64,000 nt of DNA from the NCBI RefSeq assembly GCF_011090385.1, contig NZ_SEWW01000011.1, positions 1 through 64,000 on the forward strand. The letters run 5' to 3'. This stretch comes from Aquirufa beregesia. Lineage in GTDB: Bacteria; Bacteroidota; Bacteroidia; Cytophagales; Spirosomataceae. The notes beneath the pieces are model-generated. The model was not told the DNA's origin and ran no database searches. It worked only from the letters and a program-made list of their open reading frames with translations. A program made the position numbers and the translations under genes. Of this stretch, positions 48,047 to 61,747 are shown one piece after another. Position 1 is the stretch's first letter. Each line of letters begins with the position of its first letter.

Positions 48047-49531
48047 TCATTCTACATTTTTAATCCGCTGTAGTAGCGCCCTCATCTCACTAACCTTTTC
48101 AGGATATTTCTCAAACAAGTTTTCCGATTCTTTGGGGTCAAGTTTTAGGTTAAATAATTGGCCAGTGATGTGATTGGTGGCTTTGACATTTCTAGGGTCA
48201 GTGAAACCTCCCGAGCCCAATCCTTCCACCCATTTCCATTCACCCTGTCGGACAACTAAATACCCGATGGACGTGGTGAATACCAAAGCCTCTTGCTCTG
48301 GAATATCCTTGCTTTTCTGGGTCAATAATGGGTAAATGCCATAACTGTCATTTTTGCTGGTGCTTTGACCTAGGATTTGTTGACAAGTAGCTAATAAACT
48401 GGTTTGAGAAACTAAGGCATGGGACGTGCTTTTGGCCTTTACTTTCTTAGGCCAACGAACAATGAACGGGATACGGTGGCCAGCTTCAAAGGCATCACCT
48501 TTCATTCCTCTCCATTCTCCAGCCGCCTGATGTTGAAATTCTTTCACGAAATTTTCTCTCCAATAGGGCCCATTATCGCTGGTAAAAATAACGATGGTGT
48601 TTTCTTTTAATCCAAGGCTATCCAAGGTTTTCATGAGTTGACCAACCGAAGCATCCACTTGTTGAACAAAATCCCCATACTCGCCGGCTTTGGAGCTTCC
48701 CTTGAATTTGTTTTGAGGAACCCAAGGAGTATGTGGACCAGAAAAGGGGATGTACAAGAAAAAGGGTTTATTGGGTTTTTGACGGGCCAAAAACTCGTTG
48801 GATTTATCGATGAATCGGGGCATAACTCCATAGAAATCAAAACTAGGTGCCATTTTTCCTTCTCGCCAAAAGGGACCTGTATACCCTGTGGTTAATTTAT
48901 TGCCATCTGTATAGCCAGTAGGCTTCTCCACCAAATGTTGGTTTTCCAAATAGCAATAGGGTGGCATGTCCAACGATGCTGGCAAAATATAGGAATAGTC
49001 GAAACCCACCGCAGCAGGACCACCTGTAGGATCTTGGTCAAAATCAATATGCTCTGGCTTCATTTCTTCCTTGATGCCATAATTCACTTGGGTTATATTG
49101 CCTTCAAAACCGGCTTTTACGGCCCAGTCCAAACCCAAATGCCATTTGCCAACCACGCCTGTTTGATAGCCTTGACTTTTGAGAAAAGAAGCAACGGTCA
49201 TACGTTCTTTTTCAATCAAGCTGCGACTATAGCCACGCAATACGCCCACAGGTAATTTACTTCGAAAAGGATATTGTCCCGTCATGATGGCGTATCTGGA
49301 TGGCGTACAAACTCCAGAAGCAGAATGAGCATCTAAAAAGCGCATGCCTTCTTTAGCCAATTGATCGATGTGAGGAGTGGCTACTTTATCTCCTTTGGGA
49401 TTATAGATGGAGATATCTCCATAGCCCAAATCATCGGCTAATATGTAAATGATATTCGGTTTCTTCTGAGCCAAACTCGGAAAAACCAGGGACATACCCA
49501 GCAAAAGAGGAAAGATAAAGCTTGTTTTCAT
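48047..49531 (-). CDS. Secreted sulfatase (arylsulfatase family)
   Basis: 494 aa with a signal peptide (MKTSFIFPLLLGMSLVFPSLAQ). The metal site begins LADDLGYGD (Asp33/Asp34). The formylglycine motif CTPSR (75-79) needs conversion by a formylglycine-generating enzyme not seen here. IFTSDNGPYW near 317-326 is another active-site block. Substrate unknown. It is the last gene of the six-gene exported module, 1 nt after the diheme cytochrome. Confidence 0.9.
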   Translation of the reverse strand: MKTSFIFPLLLGMSLVFPSLAQKKPNIIYILADDLGYGDISIYNPKGDKVATPHIDQLAKEGMRFLDAHSASGVCTPSRYAIMTGQYPFRSKLPVGVLRGYSRSLIEKERMTVASFLKSQGYQTGVVGKWHLGLDWAVKAGFEGNITQVNYGIKEEMKPEHIDFDQDPTGGPAAVGFDYSYILPASLDMPPYCYLENQHLVEKPTGYTDGNKLTTGYTGPFWREGKMAPSFDFYGVMPRFIDKSNEFLARQKPNKPFFLYIPFSGPHTPWVPQNKFKGSSKAGEYGDFVQQVDASVGQLMKTLDSLGLKENTIVIFTSDNGPYWRENFVKEFQHQAAGEWRGMKGDAFEAGHRIPFIVRWPKKVKAKSTSHALVSQTSLLATCQQILGQSTSKNDSYGIYPLLTQKSKDIPEQEALVFTTSIGYLVVRQGEWKWVEGLGSGGFTDPRNVKATNHITGQLFNLKLDPKESENLFEKYPEKVSEMRALLQRIKNVE

Positions 49532-49532
49532 G

Positions 49533-50579
49533 TTAATGTGCTAAGGAGTTTATCCAATCTTGAATCAATTTGATTCCTGCCTGATGTTTCATTTTTCGAC
49601 CTAGTTCAGGCATCATAATGCCTGGGTCTACGGAATCCATGCGGTAGGCCAAGATACTTTCTTTGGCTTTGCCGGGAACAATATCGTATTTCAAATTGCC
49701 TGATCCTCTTCCCGCTGCTACCGGGGTCTTCATGAACCCATAGGCTGTTTTATCTTTTGAATCCCATTGTAAATATAATCCTGAAGAGCGTGCAGGTCCT
49801 GTTGGGTTATGGCAATGCGCGCAGTTGATGTCTAAATAGGCTTTGGCACGTTCATCGAGCGACTTACTTTCATCGGCATAATTGACTAGCGCTGGAATTT
49901 CATTCAGATGGGGTAAACCCGATAAAATGCCTGCTTTTGCCCAATAATCCAATTGATTTTGCTTCCCAGAAACATAATGAAACTCTCCGTTTACTTGTCG
50001 GGCCGAAGGACCAATGGGCGTCATTTTGCCACTTCGTTCATGGCAACCTTTGCATTGGTTCATGTTAGGCACTTGATAATTTACCTGTTTTAGTATGCCT
50101 TGTTTGTCCTTCCAACTAACCATAGAAGAACCTCCTGCTACTTCCAAAGTGGCTTCTGTTTGGGCTTCATCCCAAATATAGGGCAAGGCTACCCACGACT
50201 TTTCTTGTCGGATTAACACCCGTGTTTCCATGATTCTCCTTCCTGCCGAAGGATTGGCTTCATCTTTGGGATAATAAAAGGTTTTAATGATGGCGGTGCC
50301 CACCGGAAACTGAAATACGGAATCTGCATTATAGGCCACCTTACTTTCCGCTGGTAATTTGATAAAGCGGAGTTTGGATGCATAATCCGAAAAAAGGGGG
50401 GAATTCAATTGGTAAGGAATCACGCCGTCTTGTGGATTTTGATCTTTTAAATCACCCTTGAAAAATCCATAATCGGATAATTTCATGACATAGCCAGTCG
50501 TGCTTTTTTGGATGGAACTAGCGTTGATAAAGGTCATCCAAACCAATATCATCAAGCCTAAACGAAAAGACCTGTTCAT
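49533..50579 (-). CDS. SO2930-family diheme c-type cytochrome
   Basis: 348 aa with a signal segment (5-20). Two heme c sites: CKGCH (176-180) and CAHCH (253-257); the C-terminal DPGIMMPELGRKM is the usual distal Met region. This family is repeatedly found beside parallel beta-helix proteins, as here (2 nt downstream of one). Electron donor and acceptor are unknown. Confidence 0.85.
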   Translation of the reverse strand: MNRSFRLGLMILVWMTFINASSIQKSTTGYVMKLSDYGFFKGDLKDQNPQDGVIPYQLNSPLFSDYASKLRFIKLPAESKVAYNADSVFQFPVGTAIIKTFYYPKDEANPSAGRRIMETRVLIRQEKSWVALPYIWDEAQTEATLEVAGGSSMVSWKDKQGILKQVNYQVPNMNQCKGCHERSGKMTPIGPSARQVNGEFHYVSGKQNQLDYWAKAGILSGLPHLNEIPALVNYADESKSLDERAKAYLDINCAHCHNPTGPARSSGLYLQWDSKDKTAYGFMKTPVAAGRGSGNLKYDIVPGKAKESILAYRMDSVDPGIMMPELGRKMKHQAGIKLIQDWINSLAH

Positions 50580-50581
50580 GA

Positions 50582-51787
50582 TTAACGGAGTGTCTTAAAT
50601 GCTTGAAGATGGCAATTGTACAAACTGACGTCGCGTTGGATGTTTTTGAAATCGTGTTCAGCATCGATATTGGCGAAGCTTTGATTCGTATTGTTTCGAA
50701 TACAAATACGATACGAAGGAAAATATTCACCGCTGGAATCCAATCGTTTCGGGTCCAAGATGCCATCATACACAATATTGGGTACCTGTCTACCAAATTT
50801 CAGTTTGAAGCGATACATCTGACCAAATCGACCTTTGGCAGGAACTCTGCCGGCTTTTCTTTCAAAATCATTGTCACGGATTTCAATGGCTGTAGGATAG
50901 GGGTCATATTCCAAATCCGTGATTTTATTTTCCGTCATGTGGTAAGAAATAATTCCCACGCCCATGGTTCTATTTTGGTGAATCTTATTATTGAAAATTT
51001 CTACCTGACTCGTAGCTAAAACGAGCATGCCCGTTCCTTTTGGGACACGAGCCACAATGTTTCCTTTGGGGGCAAAATTGGCTAGGTTATTTTCAATGAC
51101 CTCATTTTGATATACTTTCACATGACCTCCTTTTTTCTGAACCAAATCAGGTAAATCAAAGACCAAAATGCCTCCTGTATTGCCATAGGCTTTATTGTGA
51201 TGCACCTCGGCAAATTGAGAATTTTCAATTTCTATCCCAGCTACATTTTGAAATGCGATACTATTTTTCACTTCAATGTACTTGGATTGACCTACATAAA
51301 TACCTGCATCTGAGGCACCAATGGCAATGCAACTATCAATCAATACATTTTCACAAAGCACCGGATAAAGCGCATAGCTACCATTGCTAGGAGAGGGTTT
51401 GCCTGTCCACTCGGCCTTGATTCGGCGAAAGGTGATGCCTTTGACATGCATGGTTTTGATTAAATCCCCTTTGGAATCCTGCACGGTCAGATCTTCCAAA
51501 ATGATGTTTTCAGAATTGCTGATTTTAATGCCTTCGGCTCCTCCCACTTGATTTTTAAAGGAAAGGATGGTTTTATCGATTCCTTTACCGCGGATGATCA
51601 TGTTTTTTTTACCATCCATGGAGAGACTTTGGGATATTTGGAAAGTACCTTCTTCTAATTGTATGGTACTTCCATCTTCCGCTAAAATCAAATCCGTTTG
51701 GATTTTCTTTTCGATATCTTGCTGCCCTACAACCTGGGTGACAAGGACTATTTGTAAGATCAATAGGTAAAGAAAACGCTTTGTCAT
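50582..51787 (-). CDS. Parallel beta-helix domain protein, secreted
   Basis: 401 aa, N-terminal signal segment (MTKRFLYLLILQIVLVTQVVGQ). About a dozen helix turns rich in Asn/Ile/Gly (NMIIRGKGI, ENIILEDLTV, KYIEVKNSIA, QFAEVHHNKAYG). It resembles the TIGR03805-type protein normally paired with SO2930 cytochromes. The fold fits polysaccharide lyase, epimerase or binding roles; no catalytic residues could be assigned. One nt separates it from the isomerase-like gene upstream. Confidence 0.8.
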   Translation of the reverse strand: MTKRFLYLLILQIVLVTQVVGQQDIEKKIQTDLILAEDGSTIQLEEGTFQISQSLSMDGKKNMIIRGKGIDKTILSFKNQVGGAEGIKISNSENIILEDLTVQDSKGDLIKTMHVKGITFRRIKAEWTGKPSPSNGSYALYPVLCENVLIDSCIAIGASDAGIYVGQSKYIEVKNSIAFQNVAGIEIENSQFAEVHHNKAYGNTGGILVFDLPDLVQKKGGHVKVYQNEVIENNLANFAPKGNIVARVPKGTGMLVLATSQVEIFNNKIHQNRTMGVGIISYHMTENKITDLEYDPYPTAIEIRDNDFERKAGRVPAKGRFGQMYRFKLKFGRQVPNIVYDGILDPKRLDSSGEYFPSYRICIRNNTNQSFANIDAEHDFKNIQRDVSLYNCHLQAFKTLR

Positions 51788-51788
51788 A

Positions 51789-52628
51789 TTATTTTAAATT
51801 CGATAAATAGGTTCTGCTTTGTCGGGTTTGAACGGGATATCTAGAGCTTTCATCCTCTAAATAATAATGCTGAATTTTGGCTTTTTTCGCCGCTTTCATG
51901 ATTTCAGGTATGTTCAGTTGCCCACTTCCTAAAGCTACATCATTTTCCACAGATGTGCCACCCGACATATTTCCTTGCACTCCTTTTTTCAAATCCTTCA
52001 AGTGCACCAATTTAAAGCGATTACCATATTTTTCCAACAGAGACGCTGGATTTTGACCTGGGAAAAAAGTCCAAAGGATATCCATTTCATAGCTGACAAA
52101 TTTAGGATCCGTATTTTGAACCAAGTAATCAAACAATGTACCTTCTCCATAAGGCTCAAATTCAAAGCCATGGTTGTGGTAGCAAAAGGTTAGGTCATAT
52201 TTCTCTTTCAAGGCTTTACCAATTTGGTTAAATTCCTGAGCCGTCTTTTGGGCCATTTCTAAGGTAAACGGACCTGTATGAGGAATCCATGCCACTCGAA
52301 CAAAGGAAGCACCTAAGGTTTTCGCATTTTCGCCCACCTGATCCGTCTTGTTTAATGCATCAGCCATATTTACTCCGAAAGAAGAACATTTCATGCCCCT
52401 TTCATCCAACAGGTCTCTCACTTCTTGGGCTGTTTTGCCAAATAAACTGGAGAATTCCATGTCGGTAATACCTTGGTTTTTTAAGGTATCTAAAGTTTTG
52501 GCCATGTTTTTGGATAAGCTATTGCGGTAAGTAAAAGATACCATGCCGATGTCTTTGCCATTGATTTGCATGGGTTTCTGGGCAAATGCCAACGTAGGCA
52601 ATAGGAGTAAAAGAAAAAATGCTTTCAT
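51789..52628 (-). CDS. Secreted sugar phosphate isomerase/epimerase-like TIM barrel
   Basis: 279 aa with a signal peptide (MKAFFLLLLLPTLAFAQ). AP-endonuclease-2/xylose isomerase-like barrel: FCYHNHGFEFEPYG (about 147-160), EMDILWTFFPGQ (about 178-189) and LVHLKDLKKG (about 205-214) carry the expected His/Glu/Asp metal ligands. Phosphorylated sugars are not expected in the periplasm, so a free sugar or cyclitol substrate is more likely. Directly downstream of the oxidoreductase gene (1 nt). Confidence 0.85.
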   Translation of the reverse strand: MKAFFLLLLLPTLAFAQKPMQINGKDIGMVSFTYRNSLSKNMAKTLDTLKNQGITDMEFSSLFGKTAQEVRDLLDERGMKCSSFGVNMADALNKTDQVGENAKTLGASFVRVAWIPHTGPFTLEMAQKTAQEFNQIGKALKEKYDLTFCYHNHGFEFEPYGEGTLFDYLVQNTDPKFVSYEMDILWTFFPGQNPASLLEKYGNRFKLVHLKDLKKGVQGNMSGGTSVENDVALGSGQLNIPEIMKAAKKAKIQHYYLEDESSRYPVQTRQSRTYLSNLK

Positions 52629-52629
52629 G

Positions 52630-53721
52630 TTATTTTAAAAAAATGGTTTTGTGAGTTTTTGCAGATTCAGAGGCAGCGGATAATATTTCCACTACAATTT
52701 CATTGATGGCTAAAGAAGACAAATCCTTTTGTGGATCTATTTTGCCTTGTACTACAGCAGCTAAATAGGCAAATACATTGGCTCTTTCGGGAGCTAATGG
52801 AGATAAATCAATGAGGCTTTCTTTGCCAAATCGACCTTCAGCAACATACTTCATTTGTTTGGTCTTATTGGCCACTAAAATACCTTTGCTGGCATATAAT
52901 TCGGTGTCTTTTCTATCAAATGGCCAATTCCAGGAACCTTGAATGATGGCCTGAGCATTAGGGTAGTTTAAAATAATGGTGGTTTCATCATCTACTTTAG
53001 GATAGATGTGCGGTTTTAAATGTTGGCTCACAGCTGTCACGGAAATAGGCTTTTGTCCTTCCATGAGCCAAGTCATGATGTTAGCACCATAGCAACCAAA
53101 ATCAATCAATGCTCCTCCACCGTTCATTTTAGGGTCGGTTAGCCAAGCTAAGAATTCTTTCGAACAACCAATTTCTACGGGACCATTATGTCCGTCCATG
53201 ATGACTACCTTGCGCAGATCCCCCAAGGATTTTTCCACTTTCAGCATGTCCCACATCTTGGCATGGGAGGGATACCAAGTCGTTTCAAAATTGGTTAATA
53301 GGGCTATCGGATGCTTTTTAACCAAGGCTTTCATCTTAGCCAGATGATCCATATTGACAGCCAACGGTTTTTCTACCATTACATGTATGCCTTTGGGGGC
53401 ACAAGTTTGGACGACTTCCAAATGTTCATAGATGCTATTAAATGCACAAACGGCTTCTGGTTTTGTTTGGGCAATCAGTGTTTCTAAATCGGGGAACCAA
53501 AGGGATTCGGGTAATTGGTATTGCTTGAGCAGGCGCATGGCCAAGTTTTTATTTTTCTCGGCAAATCCAACAATGACCACATCCGCATTTTTTTGTGCGG
53601 CATGTAGCGCCTGACCCACGTGATCATGCGTCATTCCGGCTATTCCCACTCGAATGGGATTGCTGAATAAAAGTATAGGGCTGATCATGACCAGCCCTAT
53701 GAGAAATAGTTTCGTTTTCAT
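52630..53721 (-). CDS. Gfo/Idh/MocA-family oxidoreductase with export signal
   Basis: 363 aa. Signal-like MKTKLFLIGLVMISPILLFSN, then a Rossmann start RVGIAGMTHDHVG (about 23-35) in which the usual GxGxxG is altered. VEKPLAV (EKP motif) near 116-122 and FGCYGANIMTWLM near 205-217 fit the family. The signal lacks a twin arginine, so export would be by Sec without bound cofactor; how it obtains NAD(P), or whether it stays anchored inside, is open. A strong hairpin lies in its signal codons. Confidence 0.8.
   Translation of the reverse strand: MKTKLFLIGLVMISPILLFSNPIRVGIAGMTHDHVGQALHAAQKNADVVIVGFAEKNKNLAMRLLKQYQLPESLWFPDLETLIAQTKPEAVCAFNSIYEHLEVVQTCAPKGIHVMVEKPLAVNMDHLAKMKALVKKHPIALLTNFETTWYPSHAKMWDMLKVEKSLGDLRKVVIMDGHNGPVEIGCSKEFLAWLTDPKMNGGGALIDFGCYGANIMTWLMEGQKPISVTAVSQHLKPHIYPKVDDETTIILNYPNAQAIIQGSWNWPFDRKDTELYASKGILVANKTKQMKYVAEGRFGKESLIDLSPLAPERANVFAYLAAVVQGKIDPQKDLSSLAINEIVVEILSAASESAKTHKTIFLK
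53675..53700 (-). other. Strong hairpin inside the signal-peptide codons of the Gfo/Idh gene
   Basis: ATAGGGCTG and CAGCCCTAT pair perfectly (9 bp) around an 8-base loop, starting 22 bases into the gene. It could slow ribosomes or act as an mRNA processing or attenuation point between the small LTxxQ-like gene and the rest of the operon. Confidence 0.5.
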
Positions 53722-53742: not shown

Positions 53743-54102
53743 TTAGTTTCTTGGAGGACCACCTTGACGCATTTGACTTTGCATCGTGATGTATTTTTCC
53801 AATTGTTCTGGAGAGAAAATGGCTTTCAATGATTCCAATTGTCCATCATTGATTTTCTTCATTTCTGCCATCATTTGCTCACGCTCCATGCCAGCCTGAC
53901 GGAATTCCGTCATTTTTTGCATACGAGCGGAAATAATCGGCTCCAGTTTTTTAACCTGATCATCAGTCAGTTTTAATTCCGTAGAATAACGGTCAAGCTG
54001 ACGTTGAACCATCGCTTTTGGATCAAAGTCTTGTGCAGTAGCTTTTGTACTCAGGCCAAGGAGCATCGCCATCATGGCGCATAGAGCAATTAGTTTTTTC
54101 AT
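53743..54102 (-). CDS. Small secreted LTxxQ/Spy-like protein
   Basis: 119 aa with a signal peptide (MKKLIALCAMMAMLLGLSTKATAQ). The mature part is helical and Met/Gln/Lys-rich, with LKLTDDQVKKLEP (about 43-55) and FSPEQLEKYI (about 96-105) in the style of Spy/CpxP-type LTxxQ repeats, and a Pro/Gly tail. Possible periplasmic chaperone or metal/stress sensor. It follows eboF by 59 nt and leads the exported module. Confidence 0.65.
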   Translation of the reverse strand: MKKLIALCAMMAMLLGLSTKATAQDFDPKAMVQRQLDRYSTELKLTDDQVKKLEPIISARMQKMTEFRQAGMEREQMMAEMKKINDGQLESLKAIFSPEQLEKYITMQSQMRQGGPPRN

Positions 54103-54161: not shown

Positions 54162-55529
54162 TTATTGAAAAATAGTTTTCCAAATTAAATCATATACTTC
54201 AGGCGCCTCTACTTGGCTAGGAAGGCTTTTTTGATCCGATACATAAATAGGATAATAGGCTGGCTCACAAAAAATACTTCCATGGGAACCTTTGATGAGC
54301 GTGGCATCTAGTGGAATTACATCCATCAAATAGCGAAAACCACTGAGTTTTCTAGCCAATTTATAGGCCGCTCTGAGTTTAATGAAGGGGTTTTTAGGGT
54401 CCATAAACATCTCTACAGGGTCATAACCTGGTTTTTTATGAATATCCACTAAACGGGCATAGTCAGGCGCTTTGGCGTCATTCATCCAGAAATAATAGAC
54501 AAACCAAGCCTGCGGCTCGGCTATTAATACCAATTCCCCACTGCGGGCATGATCAATGTGGTAGGCTTTTTGTTCCTTCTTATTTAAGACTTTAGCTATG
54601 CCGGGTACTTTTTCTAAATCGGCCTTTATTGCCGCTATTTTGTTGGCATCTTGAATGTAGACGTGCGCTATTTGGTGATCTGCCGTTGCAAATGCCACAC
54701 TAGCACCTGCATCCAGTAGTTCTAAGCCTTGTTCAATGCGTATGCTAATCAAACCTTTTTCACGCAAAATACGATTGATGTAAATAGGCTGATTCACTTC
54801 GTTGATTCCATATTCGGATAATAGAATCACTTCCGCTCCTGTACTTTCAAAATGCGTCACTAGGTCTTTGACCACTTCATCTATTTCCTTCAACTCCTTC
54901 GCTATCTTGGGAATATCTGGGCCAAATTTTTGCAGACAATAGTCCAAATGCGGCAAATAAATCAGATTCAGCGTGGGATTATATTTCTTATCCACCCAGA
55001 TAGAAGCATCAGCAATCCATTGGGTCGATTTGATATTGGCATTAGGCCCCCAAAAACTAAATAATGGGAATGTTCCTAGTTCCGCTTGTAATTCATCGCG
55101 TAAGGAGGCGGGGTAGGAGTAGCAGTCGGGTGCTTTTACGCCGTCTGCATGGTACTGTGGACGAGGCGTGACAGAATAATCCGCTGTAGAATACATGTTG
55201 TACCACCAGAACATTTTGGCACAGGTAAAATTCGGATTTGCCTTTTTGGCGGCATCCCAAATTTTCTCCCCTTGAACTAGGTGGTTGGATTGTTTCCAAA
55301 ACTTCACTTCGGCATCTTCGCGGTCATACCAGCCATTTCCCACGATTCCGTTTTCATTGGGATATTTTCCAGTCACATAACAACTTTGAGAAGTGGTCGT
55401 AACAGCTGGTAAAACGGGTTTGATGTGGCAAATTTGCTTGGAAGCAATGAACTGGTTTAAAAACGGTGTATGTTCGCAGAGAACACTTTGACTTAATCCA
55501 ACCACATCAATCACGACCGTCTTTTGCAT
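54162..55529 (-). CDS. eboF: EboF, nucleotide pyrophosphatase/phosphodiesterase-like (alkaline phosphatase superfamily)
   Basis: 455 aa, no signal peptide. VVIDVVGLSQ (5-14) begins the type I phosphodiesterase fold; LPAVTTTSQSCYVTGKYP (40-57) carries the Thr nucleophile, and LPHLDYCLQKFGP and LSEYGINEV hold other metal ligands. The last ebo gene; the cluster has been linked to delivering a precursor to the periplasm. It starts 4 nt after eboE. Confidence 0.88.
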   Translation of the reverse strand: MQKTVVIDVVGLSQSVLCEHTPFLNQFIASKQICHIKPVLPAVTTTSQSCYVTGKYPNENGIVGNGWYDREDAEVKFWKQSNHLVQGEKIWDAAKKANPNFTCAKMFWWYNMYSTADYSVTPRPQYHADGVKAPDCYSYPASLRDELQAELGTFPLFSFWGPNANIKSTQWIADASIWVDKKYNPTLNLIYLPHLDYCLQKFGPDIPKIAKELKEIDEVVKDLVTHFESTGAEVILLSEYGINEVNQPIYINRILREKGLISIRIEQGLELLDAGASVAFATADHQIAHVYIQDANKIAAIKADLEKVPGIAKVLNKKEQKAYHIDHARSGELVLIAEPQAWFVYYFWMNDAKAPDYARLVDIHKKPGYDPVEMFMDPKNPFIKLRAAYKLARKLSGFRYLMDVIPLDATLIKGSHGSIFCEPAYYPIYVSDQKSLPSQVEAPEVYDLIWKTIFQ

Positions 55530-55533
55530 AGTT

Positions 55534-56736
55534 TTAGGCTTTTAATTGTTCTTGTACCCATTGAATTTCTCGAATGATGGATTCATGAATGGGAATTTGA
55601 TGTTCTTCCGGCAAGACAGCCCAGGTATAGGTTTCTATTTCCATTTGTCCGGTGAATGCTTTCTGCTTTTGTATGGCTAATGTTTCTCGAATTTCTTTCT
55701 GTGTGGAACCCAATAATCCATAATTCTCTAAAAATAAAGGCACATGGTAGTGAATTCTCCATTCCAAAAATGCCCCTGGCTCATAAGCCGCAAAGGCTTG
55801 GTCCAAATCCGGATATTGGATGAAACTGCCATCCACTTTTTTGGCTTTCACCTGATGTAAATAAACAGGCTCTTGGTATTTTTTCAGCAAGGCTAATTTT
55901 TCTTCCGCTTGCTGACTAAAGTCCAACCGCAAGGCTGAACTCACCTGTATCTTTCCTACTTGTATGCCTTTTTCCTTCAACTCAGCAATGCAGGTAGCAG
56001 GATGATCATAGCTTACTCCGAAATGACAGATGTCAAAACAGATTTGAATATGTCGACGAATCAATTCCTCGGCTTTGGTAGCGCTATATCCTTTTTCGAT
56101 TAAATGAGGAATACCTAGTGGCAATAAACAGGCACCATACCAATCCACGAATTCACGGTGGTTTTCTAAAATACCATCGGGTTCTGGTTCAATATCAATG
56201 TGTATGCTTTTTCCTGTAGCTTGTTCAATGTGTGCCAAAGAATCCACTAAATCTACTAAGGCCAAGGTGCCTTTTTCAGTAGCTTCTTGCAATGCCTCTG
56301 GACTTTTCCACCAAAAACGGTAGGAGAGTGGAGAGGTGGAAATGCCTCCTGAAGCTTGACTTTCTGGCAATAATTTGGCTAAAATATGGGCCAAACGCAG
56401 GGTATAATCGTAACGTTCTGTTGTGGTCCAATCAGGTGTGTGCACATCGTCTTTAACCACTACGCCATGAAATCCTCCAAAAGGAAATCCGTTGAGCGTA
56501 AATACGTACAAATCCTCGGCTTTCAACCAATCTGTCAAGGCTTTCCAAGCTTGTTCATCTTGTAAATCTCTACTGGCTAAATCGGCAATGCGTAAACCTA
56601 GGCCCATGGGAGCATCAGGACTTACTACCGCTTTGATAGCCGGTATGTTTTTTTGAAGATTGGCAAAATGTTCAGACCAAATTTCACCCGGATGAATGTT
56701 GGAACAATAACTTAAAAGCCCTTGTGCTGTTTTCAT
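55534..56736 (-). CDS. eboE: EboE, xylose isomerase-like metabolite traffic protein
   Basis: 400 aa TIM barrel related to AP-endonuclease 2/xylose isomerases. LSYCSNIHPGEIW (8-20) is the typical EboE start, IDIEPEPDG near 198-206 and ICFDICHFGVSY near 232-243 carry predicted metal ligands. No signal peptide, so it acts in the cytoplasm. It starts 6 nt after eboD and is followed 4 nt later by eboF. Confidence 0.9.
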   Translation of the reverse strand: MKTAQGLLSYCSNIHPGEIWSEHFANLQKNIPAIKAVVSPDAPMGLGLRIADLASRDLQDEQAWKALTDWLKAEDLYVFTLNGFPFGGFHGVVVKDDVHTPDWTTTERYDYTLRLAHILAKLLPESQASGGISTSPLSYRFWWKSPEALQEATEKGTLALVDLVDSLAHIEQATGKSIHIDIEPEPDGILENHREFVDWYGACLLPLGIPHLIEKGYSATKAEELIRRHIQICFDICHFGVSYDHPATCIAELKEKGIQVGKIQVSSALRLDFSQQAEEKLALLKKYQEPVYLHQVKAKKVDGSFIQYPDLDQAFAAYEPGAFLEWRIHYHVPLFLENYGLLGSTQKEIRETLAIQKQKAFTGQMEIETYTWAVLPEEHQIPIHESIIREIQWVQEQLKA

Positions 56737-56742
56737 GGTATG

Positions 56743-57888
56743 CTATCCTAATTGAGCTAAGAAATCAACCGATTTTTTAATTAAATCGAAATTCATTTCA
56801 TGCACTTCTTTTCCTTTGCCTAGTTTTTCCAACAAAGTAATACATAATTGTCCACCCAAATGCTCTTGGAATTCCTGCAAGCCTTTGAATAAATTGGCTT
56901 TATCATTTTCTGCCAAAGCTGGGTGGTAGGTATCAAATCCTAAAGTTCGAATCACCGCAATCACACGGTCTCTTTCCTCAGCGGTTAAATAGCCAATTTC
57001 ATGCGAATAGGCTGTATCTAAAGCAAGACCAATGGCCACAGCTTCTCCATGACGAATCTCAAAATTGCTTAAATATTCTAATTTATGAGCTGCCCAATGG
57101 CCAAAATCCAAGGGTCTAGCTGATCCTAATTCAAAAGGATCCCCGCTGGAAATGTGCTGCATATGTAATTCAGCGCAACGGTAGATTTGTTCCATCATGG
57201 CCGCTTCATTGCGCTCATTCATGGCTGCTGCATTGGCTTCCAACCATTGGAAGAAGGCTAAATCCTTGATTAAAGCTACTTTGATGGCTTCTGCAATACC
57301 TGATCTCCAGTCGCGGTCGTTTAAGGTAGCCAATAAATTCACATCGTTGAACACAGCTACGGGTGGAGCAAAAGTGCCTAGGAAATTTTTCTTTCCCATG
57401 TAATTCACTCCATTTTTAACGCCTACTCCCGAATCATTTTGAGATAAAACCGTACTCGGTATACGAATGAATTTCACCCCTCGGTGCGAGATAGCTGCGG
57501 CATAACCGCTCATATCTAAAAAGGCTCCACCACCAATACATGCCACAAAAGAGTGTCGATCGATGCGATGCTCATCAATAGCCCGAACCACTTCTTCATA
57601 AAAGCGAGGGTCATTTTTACATATTTCTCCACCGGGTAAAATCAAGATTTCTGGGGATAAATCTGCCACAGGATACGTTTCAAAGTAGTGGACGATTTCA
57701 GAGGTCAAGTTCGGATGGGCATCTGCCACGCCTTTGTCGATGACAAACACAATCCTTTTCCTAAAATCGGCTAAGCCAAAGTTCAAGATGAAATCCTTGA
57801 AAACGGGATTATCTTGTTGGAATAAGCCTTTGGAAAAAATGACTTGATAGCGAAAGGGTACCTGAAAATATTGTTCTAATGACTGCAT
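56743..57888 (-). CDS. eboD: EboD, 3-dehydroquinate synthase-like sugar phosphate cyclase
   Basis: 381 aa of the DHQS/sugar phosphate cyclase superfamily. ILPGGEICKND (83-93), NAD loop CIGGGAFLDMSGYAAA (117-132), IPSTVLSQNDSGVGVKNGVN (143-162) and the zinc-site region DFGHWAAHKLE (about 263-273). The name 3-dehydroquinate synthase is inherited; its ebo context suggests a different cyclic product. It lies 9 nt after eboC. Confidence 0.9.
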   Translation of the reverse strand: MQSLEQYFQVPFRYQVIFSKGLFQQDNPVFKDFILNFGLADFRKRIVFVIDKGVADAHPNLTSEIVHYFETYPVADLSPEILILPGGEICKNDPRFYEEVVRAIDEHRIDRHSFVACIGGGAFLDMSGYAAAISHRGVKFIRIPSTVLSQNDSGVGVKNGVNYMGKKNFLGTFAPPVAVFNDVNLLATLNDRDWRSGIAEAIKVALIKDLAFFQWLEANAAAMNERNEAAMMEQIYRCAELHMQHISSGDPFELGSARPLDFGHWAAHKLEYLSNFEIRHGEAVAIGLALDTAYSHEIGYLTAEERDRVIAVIRTLGFDTYHPALAENDKANLFKGLQEFQEHLGGQLCITLLEKLGKGKEVHEMNFDLIKKSVDFLAQLG

Positions 57889-57897
57889 GCTATAAAA

Positions 57898-58779
57898 TTA
57901 CGTAACGGCAAAGAATTTCCCTACTCGCATGGAAATGGGTAATAGGGCTAACACTGCCAAAGCAATCATCCATTGTCCACTTAGACTCACCCAGGCCGCG
58001 TTCATCACAATGAGTGACAAGACACCTGCTTTCACCGTTTTACCAATGTTGGGTCCAATGGGATTTTGATATGCTTTTATTAAAGGTTTAAATATAAGCG
58101 TGATGTGCAAGATAATGAAAGGAATGGCAATCCATTGTTCCGATTTAATGGCCAAGGATAATTGTGCCGCATGAATGATCAAAAAGAAAAAGGCCGCTGC
58201 CGCTATGGGCCAAGGGGTACTTCCATGTACTTCACCCCGACTCACCATGGTAATGGCTGCAATGTAAATCAAAGGTAATATCATCCATTGTCCCTGTTCT
58301 ATGACCCCTAGTTCGTAGACCGACATGCCCAAAAGTAGGTTAAATGCTCTGCAAAGGCCCATGTTGATGGGGCCAAAGTATGGCATGTGTTTTCCTTTCC
58401 AGTCGTAAAATAGGGCTAATAAAGTAATGATAATGGCCACGTAGCCACTGAGTATACTTTGTTTGAAGGCTAAGAAAATGCCCAAAACTAAAAGGAGTAA
58501 ACCTCCTGCAATAGCGGCTTGTAAAGAAATCCTTCCACTGGGTAAAGCTCTTTCTGGTCGTTCTAGGCTATCCAAATCTCTATCAAACACATCATTGAAC
58601 ACCACCCCACCTGCATATAAACACATGGTGGAAAATCCTAATAAGAAAAGGGGCTGTATGGAATAATCTTTCCAAACAAAAAGGAAACCCACGATGGCCA
58701 TACCCGCCATGATGTCGGTCAAAGCCGTGATGACATTGGCGGGTCGAGTTAATTCCAAAAAGGCCCTAATCTGACTCAT
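57898..58779 (-). CDS. eboC: EboC, UbiA-type prenyltransferase
   Basis: 293 aa with about eight membrane helices. The first Asp-rich motif is NDVFDRDLDSLERPERALPSG (62-82). UbiA enzymes transfer prenyl chains to aromatic or cyclic acceptors at the membrane; the substrate here is unknown. Start and stop overlap with eboB as TAATG (1 nt). Confidence 0.9.
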   Translation of the reverse strand: MSQIRAFLELTRPANVITALTDIMAGMAIVGFLFVWKDYSIQPLFLLGFSTMCLYAGGVVFNDVFDRDLDSLERPERALPSGRISLQAAIAGGLLLLVLGIFLAFKQSILSGYVAIIITLLALFYDWKGKHMPYFGPINMGLCRAFNLLLGMSVYELGVIEQGQWMILPLIYIAAITMVSRGEVHGSTPWPIAAAAFFFLIIHAAQLSLAIKSEQWIAIPFIILHITLIFKPLIKAYQNPIGPNIGKTVKAGVLSLIVMNAAWVSLSGQWMIALAVLALLPISMRVGKFFAVT

Positions 58780-59792
58780 TAGCGAATGATCAAGGAGTTT
58801 TTATTGACTCTTGGAGCTTGTCCACCACGTAAAACCGTATTGCCATTGAATTTCAGAGACTGATCTATTTCCATGCCATGGATAAAATCAGATTCCTTAA
58901 TTTGTCCACTTTGAGCAAAAGCATCCAAGGCATTTTGGTAGGTTACTAAACGAATATCTTCATCCGAAATACCTTTCATTTTCATCAATGCTGCTGTTTT
59001 TGGAATCGCCAAGGGATCGGAAATACCCCAGTCGGCCGCCGAATTAATCATGATCATGGATGGGCCGTATTGTTTGACAATTTCCACCATGCGCTCATTT
59101 CCCATTTTAGTGAAGGGGTAAATGGTAAAGGCGGCATAGAATCCTTGATCCAATACCGATTTAACGGTTTCCTCGTTGTTATGGTCAATGATGACCATAT
59201 GAGGATCTAAACCATGCTCCAAAGCGATGGCCATGCTTCTTTCTGTACCTTTTTTCTTATCTCGGTGAGGCGTATGCACCTGCACAGGCAAGCCCATTTC
59301 TTTGGCCAATTCCAATTGTGCTCGGTAGTATTTTTCTTCCAAGGCTGTTTGGTCATCAAAACCAATTTCACCTACACCCACTACGCCTTCTTTTTGCAAG
59401 AATAAGGGTAAAATCTCCATTACCTCCTCAGCCAAAGCTTCATTATTAGCCTCGCGAGAGTTAAGTCCAATGGTGCAATAATGCTTGATGCCAAATTGAG
59501 AAGAACGAAAACGCTCCCAACCAACCAACGTAGCAAAATAGTCTTTAAACGACGATAATCCTGTTCTAGGTTGACCTAACCAGAAGGCAGGCTCAATGAT
59601 GGCCACCACTCCAGCATCCGCTAAGGCTTGGTAATCATCCGTTGTTCTTGCCGTCATGTGCACATGCGGATCAAAAAACTTCATGCCTTTGATGTATTGC
59701 TCAAATGTTTCTTCCACGGTGCTAGCAGTCATGGCTTCCTCTGCTGATCCTTGAAAATGAGATGGGTTCGATTGGTGTGGATTTTTACACAT
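58779..59792 (-). CDS. eboB: EboB, TatD-like metal-dependent hydrolase
   Basis: 337 aa, amidohydrolase-type TIM barrel. Metal ligands: DPHVHM (41-46), GVGEIGF (about 141-147), VQVHTPH (about 173-179), IIDHN (about 201-205) and NSAADW (about 248-253). The first 20 residues are a polar extension; an alternative ATG is at 59732. It follows eboA by 4 nt. Confidence 0.9.
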   Translation of the reverse strand: MCKNPHQSNPSHFQGSAEEAMTASTVEETFEQYIKGMKFFDPHVHMTARTTDDYQALADAGVVAIIEPAFWLGQPRTGLSSFKDYFATLVGWERFRSSQFGIKHYCTIGLNSREANNEALAEEVMEILPLFLQKEGVVGVGEIGFDDQTALEEKYYRAQLELAKEMGLPVQVHTPHRDKKKGTERSMAIALEHGLDPHMVIIDHNNEETVKSVLDQGFYAAFTIYPFTKMGNERMVEIVKQYGPSMIMINSAADWGISDPLAIPKTAALMKMKGISDEDIRLVTYQNALDAFAQSGQIKESDFIHGMEIDQSLKFNGNTVLRGGQAPRVNKNSLIIR

Positions 59793-59796
59793 AATC

Positions 59797-60657
59797 TTAG
59801 GCTGGTTGGTAAATGGGTTCTGGTTTCTCTAAAGCTCCCCAAGCATCATTTGGGACTACAGGAAGCTCGTTTTTGTATTTTTCTGCCAATTTTTTTGCTT
59901 CAGGTAAAGTGCTTTGTGCTAAAACGAGCGCAGCAGCTAAACGGTCTGAGGCTAAATCGGAATGAATTAATTTTTCAATATCAGGTAATATCTTCTGATT
60001 CAAATAAGGTACGATTAAGCGCCAAACTTGCGATGGTACACGACGGTTCGCCGCCCAACGTTCATGCGCAAAATCCACCAAGGTTTGTACCAAAGCTTCG
60101 TTATTTCTTTCGGCTAAACCTTCAATTTGATGGATAGGCTTATCGTTGAATATGCATTTTAAGACCAATTGGTTCCAAGCTAATTCCGAGAAATACTGCT
60201 TGGGATATGGATTTCCAAAGGCAATGGCGTCAAAGATTAAACCCACATTAGAACGTACCGCATCCGTAGCACGGTTCATCCATGCTTCAGGATAAGCGAA
60301 AACCGGAATGGCCGAATATAGGGCAACGGACTCGTTCAATTCAGCGGTATCAAATAGCAGGTTGATTTTCTTGATGTATTCTTCTCGACTTAACTCTCTT
60401 TCTTGGCAAAGGCTCAATAAATACACACGGGCCAAGCGGTCTAAGGTCCAACCATTCCAATTCCAATCGGGTAGGATGGAGGCGGCTTGACTCAAGACTT
60501 CATTTTCTAGTTCTTGTTTTTCAATAAAACGAGGAACCATGACAAAGCTGAGCGATAAAGAATTAGTGTCTTTCGCTGATTTTTCCTTCAACCAATCCAA
60601 TTCTTTGGGTTGACATTGGGTACTTAATGCTTGAAATAGGGACTCGGAGATATTCAA
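59797..60657 (-). CDS. eboA: EboA domain protein
   Basis: 286 aa, soluble and mostly helical. The start is TTG at 60657; an in-frame stop lies three codons upstream and no nearby ATG exists. WNWNGWTLDRLARVYLL (about 65-81), NVGLIFDAIAFGNPYP (about 136-151) and WNQLVLKCIF (about 160-169) match the EboA family as remembered. Biochemical role unknown. First gene of the ebo cluster, 100 nt after the glycosyltransferase. Confidence 0.9.
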   Translation of the reverse strand: MNISESLFQALSTQCQPKELDWLKEKSAKDTNSLSLSFVMVPRFIEKQELENEVLSQAASILPDWNWNGWTLDRLARVYLLSLCQERELSREEYIKKINLLFDTAELNESVALYSAIPVFAYPEAWMNRATDAVRSNVGLIFDAIAFGNPYPKQYFSELAWNQLVLKCIFNDKPIHQIEGLAERNNEALVQTLVDFAHERWAANRRVPSQVWRLIVPYLNQKILPDIEKLIHSDLASDRLAAALVLAQSTLPEAKKLAEKYKNELPVVPNDAWGALEKPEPIYQPA

Positions 60658-60757: not shown

Positions 60758-61747
60758 TTAGTGCGCATTTTCTTCGGGTTTGATCTGATACGACTTTTTT
60801 AACAGGAAAACCGTTTGCCAAAAATAATGAAACAGCATGCCTGTTTTTCGGCTAAACAAGACCTGGTTTTCCGTATTGTGCAGCAGTGGTCTCCTCTTGA
60901 CCAAATTCAACAAAATTTTCCAAGTCCAAAACAAAGGAACCAAAGCCGCATAGTTCAATAGAATAAGCAAATAGGCTCCTTGGCCATAACTTTTTCTAAT
61001 CCACAGTAAATTCGACACTTGGATTTGAACTGAAAAACGATTGACCCAAGATGTTTTCGCTCTTCGGAAGGGATTATCTCCCAACAAATGCGTCACTCGG
61101 ATATCCTCAAAATAGGCTAATTTTCCCGCTTTGATTAATCGAGTACTCCATTCGGCATCTTCGGCATACATGAAAAAATCCTCGTCCCATGCGCCCACTT
61201 GTTGAATCACTTCTTTACTTGTCATCAAGAAAAAACCGACCAAATTATTCGTTTCGTAGCTTTCTTGCGCCTCATACGGAGGAAAACATTGGTATACCCA
61301 ACGCTTCCATGCAGGTATATTCGGCAAAATATATAGATCAATGCGGATGTCGTTCAGCGTCCGATAATAGGATATCGGATTTCCCCCGGCATCTACCTGA
61401 ATAGCTCCAACAGCGGCAATTTCAGGTTTTTGTTGCAGGTAATCATAGGCTTTCCAAATGGCATTATCGCTTACAAAGGTATCCGCATTCATGAACAAGA
61501 TATGAGGGGCTTTGGCCGCGGCTAAACCTGCATTATTCGCTTTGGAGAAACCGGCATTATAGCCCAAATCCATCCATATCGTTTCAGGGAATTCCTGAAG
61601 AATAGCGGCATTAGCGCCCGCTTGGTATTTATTATCCACCACAATGCACTCAAATTCCAAACCTTGGGTATACTGGTAAATGCTTCGGAAGCAATTCAGT
61701 AAAAGATCTTCACTTTGGTAATTAACAAAAATGATGGAAAGCTGCAT
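60758..61747 (-). CDS. GT2 rhamnosyltransferase-like glycosyltransferase
   Basis: 329 aa. GT-A fold: LSIIFVNYQSEDLLLNCF (3-20), VVDN (36-39), MNADTFVSD (90-98, DXD-like NAD) and MYAEDAEWSTRLIKAG (about 196-211). One or two C-terminal hydrophobic segments (about 262-282). It likely adds a sugar to a cell-surface polysaccharide. It may be the first gene of the ebo transcript, but the 100-nt gap leaves this open. Confidence 0.85.
   Translation of the reverse strand: MQLSIIFVNYQSEDLLLNCFRSIYQYTQGLEFECIVVDNKYQAGANAAILQEFPETIWMDLGYNAGFSKANNAGLAAAKAPHILFMNADTFVSDNAIWKAYDYLQQKPEIAAVGAIQVDAGGNPISYYRTLNDIRIDLYILPNIPAWKRWVYQCFPPYEAQESYETNNLVGFFLMTSKEVIQQVGAWDEDFFMYAEDAEWSTRLIKAGKLAYFEDIRVTHLLGDNPFRRAKTSWVNRFSVQIQVSNLLWIRKSYGQGAYLLILLNYAALVPLFWTWKILLNLVKRRPLLHNTENQVLFSRKTGMLFHYFWQTVFLLKKSYQIKPEENAH

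Follow-up and report, generated by a model that had tools for sequence, protein, structure and literature searches.

The ebo operon was described by Yurchenko et al. (2016; PMC5133447), who found the gene order ABCDEF in Bacteroidetes, Cyanobacteria and Leptospira, reported this arrangement as ancestral in the first two groups, and already proposed an isoprenoid-cyclitol product. In Nostoc, deleting eboA, eboB, eboC, eboE or eboF halts export of the scytonemin monomer (2018, mBio; PMC6282210), and EboC homologues (Ubi-297, heterologous) farnesylate 8-hydroxyquinoline-2-carboxylic acid (8-HQA), for which they show a strong preference in vitro (Amiri Moghaddam et al., 2022; PMC9235831). The operon spans many phyla as well as algal plastids, and what it makes has been guesswork since 2016. 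Here we describe the ebo cluster in a 64,000-nt stretch of DNA from Aquirufa beregesia (contig NZ_SEWW01000011.1; “the window”) and compare it with ebo loci from other organisms. The window itself is ordinary. Elsewhere, in Actinomycetota, on one Gemmatimonadota plasmid and on haloarchaeal plasmids, ebo-like clusters without eboD carry a protein of the inositol-3-phosphate synthase (MIPS) type, here called M, and a distinct sugar isomerase, here called I, near eboC, and this swap makes the acceptor of EboC testable. The open-licence literature searched yielded no paper that connects ebo with inositol synthase, and a term search of the available text of PMC5133447 did not return the word “inositol”. 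Within that literature the swap was not previously linked to ebo, and it suggests a new clue to the product.

All six genes lie on the minus strand of the window in A-to-F order: eboA (60657-59797), eboB (59792-58779), eboC (58779-57898), eboD (57888-56743), eboE (56736-55534) and eboF (55529-54162). The sequence-only reading had claimed a complete, ordered, single-strand eboABCDEF with gaps of at most 9 nt and a 1-nt overlap of eboB and eboC; open reading frames and profile searches agree with it, and the gaps measured from A to F are 4, -1, 9, 6 and 4 nt. Two codons separate the TTG start of eboA from the preceding stop. The same six families, order and single strand characterize the ABCDEF-type operon (PMC5133447), from which we saw no departure in the window bar the EboA subfamily score given below. 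The Nostoc punctiforme cluster likewise joins homologues of EboA, B, C, E and F in one cluster, but there eboD, though close by, runs the opposite way, and the cluster is associated with scytonemin (PMC6282210). The window cluster is a canonical ebo operon, that is, a further member of an already described cluster and not a new kind.

Checked against profiles, the earlier family assignments stand at different levels. EboA, EboC and EboE are named directly by curated models: EboC, a membrane prenyltransferase of the UbiA superfamily, reaches 363 bits against NF035940 and EboE 482 bits against NF035939 (cut-off 250 for both), and EboA passes its domain model NF035938 (166 bits, cut-off 50) and falls below the 320-bit cut-off of the narrow subfamily model NF035937 (207 bits). 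EboE is a TIM-barrel protein of the xylose-isomerase-like kind, according to its NCBIfam name and PMC5133447, and a Pfam profile search gave no match for it. EboB, EboD and EboF hit superfamily models only. EboB, of the TatD-like metallo-hydrolase family, matches PF01026 at 63 bits, with no Ebo-specific model among its NCBIfam matches; EboD, a sugar phosphate cyclase of the dehydroquinate synthase (DHQS) superfamily, matches NF004852 at 552 bits and both DHQS Pfam domains (PF01761 and PF24621); EboF matches PF01663 at 220 bits. We call these three Ebo proteins because of their position and their similarity to the Ebo proteins of relatives.

The comparison covered 128 loci, read with profiles of the Ebo proteins (EboD cut-off 250 bits): 23 from a phylum sample, 80 from a genome-contig scan (the best 80 of at least 586 confirmed stretches), the first 10 plasmid stretches, the window, and 14 further loci. 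All six genes occur together in 61 of the 128, which excludes a chance grouping; one locus was sampled twice (L038 and L120), leaving 127 distinct loci, 60 of them with all six genes. In the phylum sample EboE is uncommon, not rare (24 of 296 genomes, the window's genome counted).

EboD was found in 82 of the 128 loci and M and/or I in 12, with no overlap; these counts rest on samples, and the 12 include three stretches from genomes G178, G296 and G297 in which M or I is not linked to ebo (see below). The SCO3242-type clusters on Streptomyces plasmids resemble ebo in encoding homologues of EboA, B, C, E and F, and differ from it in having no EboD and, flanking the EboC homologue, the inositol-3-phosphate synthase M and the isomerase I. 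Among 47 plasmid records with an EboE match (48 before one with 23% query coverage was dropped), 15 have EboD beside EboE, 29 have M within ~5 kb of EboE, and three have neither. The 29 M-type records comprise 28 of 31 from Actinomycetota together with Gemmatirosa, and EboE is at least 93% identical in 19 of the 28 actinomycete copies. No record with both EboD and M was seen among the matches listed (60 M matches out of 136 and 60 EboD matches out of 115, all plasmid records), the loci read, and two whole records. On the Gemmatirosa plasmid (Gemmatimonadota), the genes for EboC, M and I adjoin one another. Three haloarchaeal plasmid stretches (L149, L150, L151) encode EboB, EboC, EboF and at least two I-like proteins; EboA and EboE were not detected in them. 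The actinomycete, Gemmatirosa and haloarchaeal clusters, with M and I near EboC, are the firm cases of the swap. Some other loci lacking EboD were not counted as swaps: L109 (a contig-end EboD fragment of 245 bits, below the cut-off of 250), L082 and L116 (contigs of 5 and 3.6 kb), L135 (EboB and EboE only), L154 and L155 (EboB, E and F only), and 25 loci in which only EboE passed the cut-offs. As a separate observation, the genes flanking two Streptomyces M-type clusters (L056 and L158) encode a multicopper oxidase and a protein of the ScyD/ScyE family, which may hint, by analogy with scytonemin, at oxidation in the periplasm or outside the cell.

An ebo cluster without EboD also occurs in one Bacteroidota genome (G178, locus L050) and in two Alphaproteobacteria (G296, L079; G297, L080), closely related sisters that we treat as a single event. 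Whole-genome searches for EboD in these three yield 34-36% matches only. All three carry M, plus I at 436-456 bits, and in G178 the two are adjacent. MIPS is missing from 22 of the 23 EboD-containing Bacteroidota among the 24 genomes with EboE, and from all 12 further EboD-containing entries (10 genomes and two records, completeness not stated), and MIPS of any type occurs in 47 of the 296 phylum-sample genomes. I at ~400 bits is confined to two of these 296 Bacteroidota, G178 (456) and G195 (399.9), the next best score being 76; the same two genomes have the lowest-scoring, short-type MIPS. In gene trees, the EboB, EboC, EboE and EboF proteins from L050, L079 and L080 are placed within clades of EboD-type relatives. 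L079 and L080 join L105, or L105 and L126, with supports of 0.984 (EboB), 0.975 (EboC), 0.908 (EboE) and 0.988 (EboF). L050 joins Bacteroidota with 0.828 (EboB, 14 members), 0.985 (EboC, three), 0.836 (EboE, seven) and 0.957 (EboF, three), its very nearest pairings being weak for EboE (0.60) and EboF (0.28). In these three genomes the link of M and I to ebo is circumstantial.

An alignment to 1u1i and one of 11 M proteins show that M keeps, in all 11, what we take to be the catalytic lysines and nearby residues of MIPS. Three M proteins score 22-44 bits against the NCBIfam inositol-3-phosphate synthase model, far below its 638-bit cut-off. M of G178, G296, G297 and G195 forms its own subgroup, with 55-60% identity between its members (96% between the two sisters), 32-38% to Streptomyces and haloarchaeal M, and 39-42% to that of Gemmatirosa. 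The bacterial I proteins are one family (41-55% identity to I of G178), with the haloarchaeal I-like proteins more distant (118 to 134 bits); likeness of I to sugar epimerases and inosose enzymes is only distant. An annotated isomerase of Ketogulonicigenium, considered as a member, was dropped on finding no match to an I profile built without it.

Besides eboD, the window's genome has a second gene of the DHQS family, AroB. A residue alignment of the two proteins shows the catalytic core kept in EboD and four changes, K250 to H, R264 to A, N268 to D and K356 to E, with the alignment near K250 and K356 uncertain by about one residue. All four are positions that we take to bind the substrate 3-deoxy-D-arabino-heptulosonate 7-phosphate in DHQS. 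Both the D at 268 and an arginine one place past 264 are common to EboD and two annotated sedoheptulose 7-phosphate cyclases. The second DHQS-family gene and the four changed substrate-site positions rule out EboD as the housekeeping AroB. They also make it highly improbable, with the changes at presumed substrate-binding positions in mind, that EboD is a spare 3-dehydroquinate synthase supplying aromatic precursors, the role that the NCBIfam equivalog label of NF004852 would favour.

The first Asp-rich motif of EboC, N62-D63-x-x-D66-x-x-x-D70 (NDxxDxxxD), is invariant in 16 aligned proteins and in the 61 six-gene loci. At the place where we would presume the second UbiA motif, EboC has an SRGEVHG stretch with E183, and across the 16 EboC/SCO3242 proteins this motif is not kept, reading (S/A)(R/K/Q)xE with Q for E in one. 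EboC homologues are reported active despite this change (PMC9235831). By profile, the nearest solved relative of EboC is the archaeal lipid enzyme DGGGP synthase (PDB 6m31; E 6.9e-26), followed by weaker matches to chlorophyll synthase (7e-12) and 4-hydroxybenzoate prenyltransferase (4e-7). The acceptor of DGGGP synthase is a glycerol phosphate derivative. The window's genome has three UbiA-family genes in total. EboB shows H43, H45, H173, H204 and D254 among its residues invariant in the 61 loci. EboA is predicted with high confidence to be an alpha-solenoid, all-helical and possibly HEAT-like; the VIA-align table gives middling matches to HEAT-type scaffolds and lists no closer fold, which does not make the fold new. 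Sequence profiles returned no solved relative of EboA or EboE.

The reading that we tentatively prefer, at somewhat less than an even chance, is that EboD, or M with I, makes a cyclitol, that EboC prenylates it, and that the other Ebo proteins finish or organize the product. EboD would turn a sugar phosphate, its presumed substrate, into a carbocyclic polyol or keto-polyol (the cyclitol), and in lineages without EboD a myo-inositol-phosphate synthase and its partner isomerase would do the same job; since M and I stand in for EboD, the cyclitol is probably inositol-like. At the inner membrane, EboC would then use a prenyl diphosphate as donor and attach its prenyl chain to the cyclitol, presumably by O-prenylation. 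EboB, EboE and EboF may serve as soluble tailoring enzymes, acting by hydrolysis, isomerization and dephosphorylation in a step order that we presume, with the EboA alpha-solenoid docking or holding them. The resulting prenyl-cyclitol lipid would sit in the membrane as a putative carrier, required for hydrophobic secondary metabolites to reach the periplasm, as genetics indicates for the scytonemin monomer in Nostoc, the one organism for which an export role is known to us. The residues of M, the matches of EboC and the model of EboA suggest to us a prenylated cyclitol that would be made at the membrane and for which EboA would act as the scaffold, and we presume that the scheme extends to this Bacteroidota genome.

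The sequence-only reading had suggested an undescribed prenylated cyclitol-like compound. The idea is not new, having been proposed in 2016 (PMC5133447), and is still unproven; its cyclitol part is favoured by the exchange of eboD for inositol synthase and its prenylation by the polyol chemistry of EboC's nearest solved relative, and the 8-HQA preference of EboC homologues counts against it (PMC9235831). With a well-understood MIPS present in lineages that lack EboD, the choice of acceptor narrows to a cyclitol like inositol. If this is true, the product would be a new lipid class, and one cluster serving unrelated metabolites would be explained. A broader claim, which we regard as rather unlikely in its full extent, is that EboD and M plus I are functional equivalents alternating among Actinomycetota, Gemmatimonadota, haloarchaea and branches of the Bacteroidota and Alphaproteobacteria; that an inositol-type cyclitol is the universal intermediate; and that EboC makes a new class of prenyl-inositol membrane lipids, common to bacteria, algal plastids and haloarchaea, which would help metabolites across the inner membrane.

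Other explanations fit parts of these data. The swap may be a change of chemotype, in which EboD-type and M/I-type clusters share their core machinery and make different cyclitol lipids. Actinomycete EboC, annotated as the SCO3242 family, does stand as a separate group in the tree, with Gemmatirosa as a further member, and the failure to detect EboA and EboE in the haloarchaeal stretches points the same way; the remaining Ebo proteins of L050 and L079/L080, however, are ordinary EboD-type members, and we consider a chemotype change unlikely. The substrate preference of the Ubi-297 homologues suits an EboC whose acceptor is aromatic, 8-HQA or a compound like it, with EboD feeding the ring and a farnesylated quinoline-like product; an inositol synthase in the place of EboD is hard to fit with an aromatic ring, and a polyol prenyltransferase as the nearest solved relative argues in the same direction; this alternative, too, seems to us unlikely. 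It is very unlikely that the Ebo proteins form a transport complex with no metabolite of its own: NCBIfam labels EboA and EboE as metabolite traffic proteins, but many family-typical residues of EboB, EboC and EboD are invariant in the 61 loci, and EboD or M is present in 77 of the 84 loci having both EboB and EboF.

Several further points weigh, as do the 8-HQA preference and the possible change of chemotype, against the preferred scheme of an inositol-like cyclitol prenylated by EboC. To our knowledge, no Ebo product has been identified. Three Streptomyces plasmid records with EboE (NBC_01562, NBC_01340 and NBC_01244) have neither EboD nor M in the stretch read, and M was found in two of the three haloarchaeal stretches, one having I without M. 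One EboD-containing genome, G203, has a long, standard-type MIPS on another contig. Twenty-nine other genomes, including the window's own (48 bits) and others with EboD, give only weak matches to the I profile, of 42 to 76 bits; we read these as probably other sugar isomerases. In G178, G296 and G297, M and I are unlinked to ebo. In G195, which has M and I without EboE, they cluster (L165) with Gfo/Idh-like and PIG-L-like genes, two readings that rest on recognizing protein starts; a similar cluster of M, I, Gfo/Idh-like and PIG-L-like genes is present in G297 (L162). M and I thus also serve something besides ebo, and in G178, G296 and G297 they may belong to another pathway. Finally, according to a review (PMC9655573), indoles have been linked to an EDB cluster of Pseudomonas that contains ebo homologues.

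A shared history of the six genes had been suggested as a check, and it holds within Bacteroidota and only in part across phyla. Gene-tree distances over the 61 six-gene loci correlate at r 0.84 for EboA and EboB, 0.80 to 0.885 within the set EboC-D-E-F, and 0.37 to 0.56 between the two sets; every correlation exceeds the best of 200 permutations, and removing the duplicate locus shifts the values by at most 0.02. For Bacteroidota only (28 loci), all gene pairs reach 0.62 to 0.87 (0.60 to 0.86 without the duplicate). For 32 non-Bacteroidota loci (one cyanobacterial locus left out), the values are 0.95 for A-B, 0.44 to 0.81 within C-F, and 0.23 to 0.60 across sets. Judged from these trees, the six genes share one history within Bacteroidota, and across phyla A and B, which stand apart from C-F, seem to have been exchanged as a unit. 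In each of the six trees, the six loci nearest to the window are Bacteroidota ebo loci, led by L034, L127, L131 or L054, mostly by L034 (same family as the window) and two Dyadobacter loci.

Five proteins flanking the cluster gave no tblastn match (E 1e-5) in 31 Bacteroidota ebo loci (30 distinct) and do not look like an extension of the operon: a glycosyltransferase (60758-61747), a flanking protein (53743-54102) and, farther downstream, a Gfo/Idh protein (52630-53721), a TIM-barrel protein (51789-52628) and a protein read by eye as a beta-helix (50582-51787). The Gfo/Idh and TIM-barrel proteins were also considered as cyclitol enzymes and rejected on their signal-peptide-like starts (by eye) and lack of conservation beside ebo. 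Together with the beta-helix gene and a gene that looks sulfatase-like by eye, they occupy 48047-53721. The window has no Rfam match at the gathering level and no tRNA.

In L090, L094, L100, L107, L129 and L145, which belong to the 25 EboE-alone loci, an EboE-like protein stands without any other Ebo gene in reach. Six of nine such loci inspected open with YSTLVH where EboE has YCTNxH, and several of the genes adjoin ABC-transporter or dehydrogenase-like genes (by eye); these proteins are perhaps a catabolic paralogue. In L055 (G179), EboE is split across two reading frames. An annotated ferritin-like gene, adjoining a hypothetical gene of ~1.8-2 kb, lies near ebo in L063, L062 and L159 (Aureibacter, Mycetohabitans and Gloeothece, respectively).

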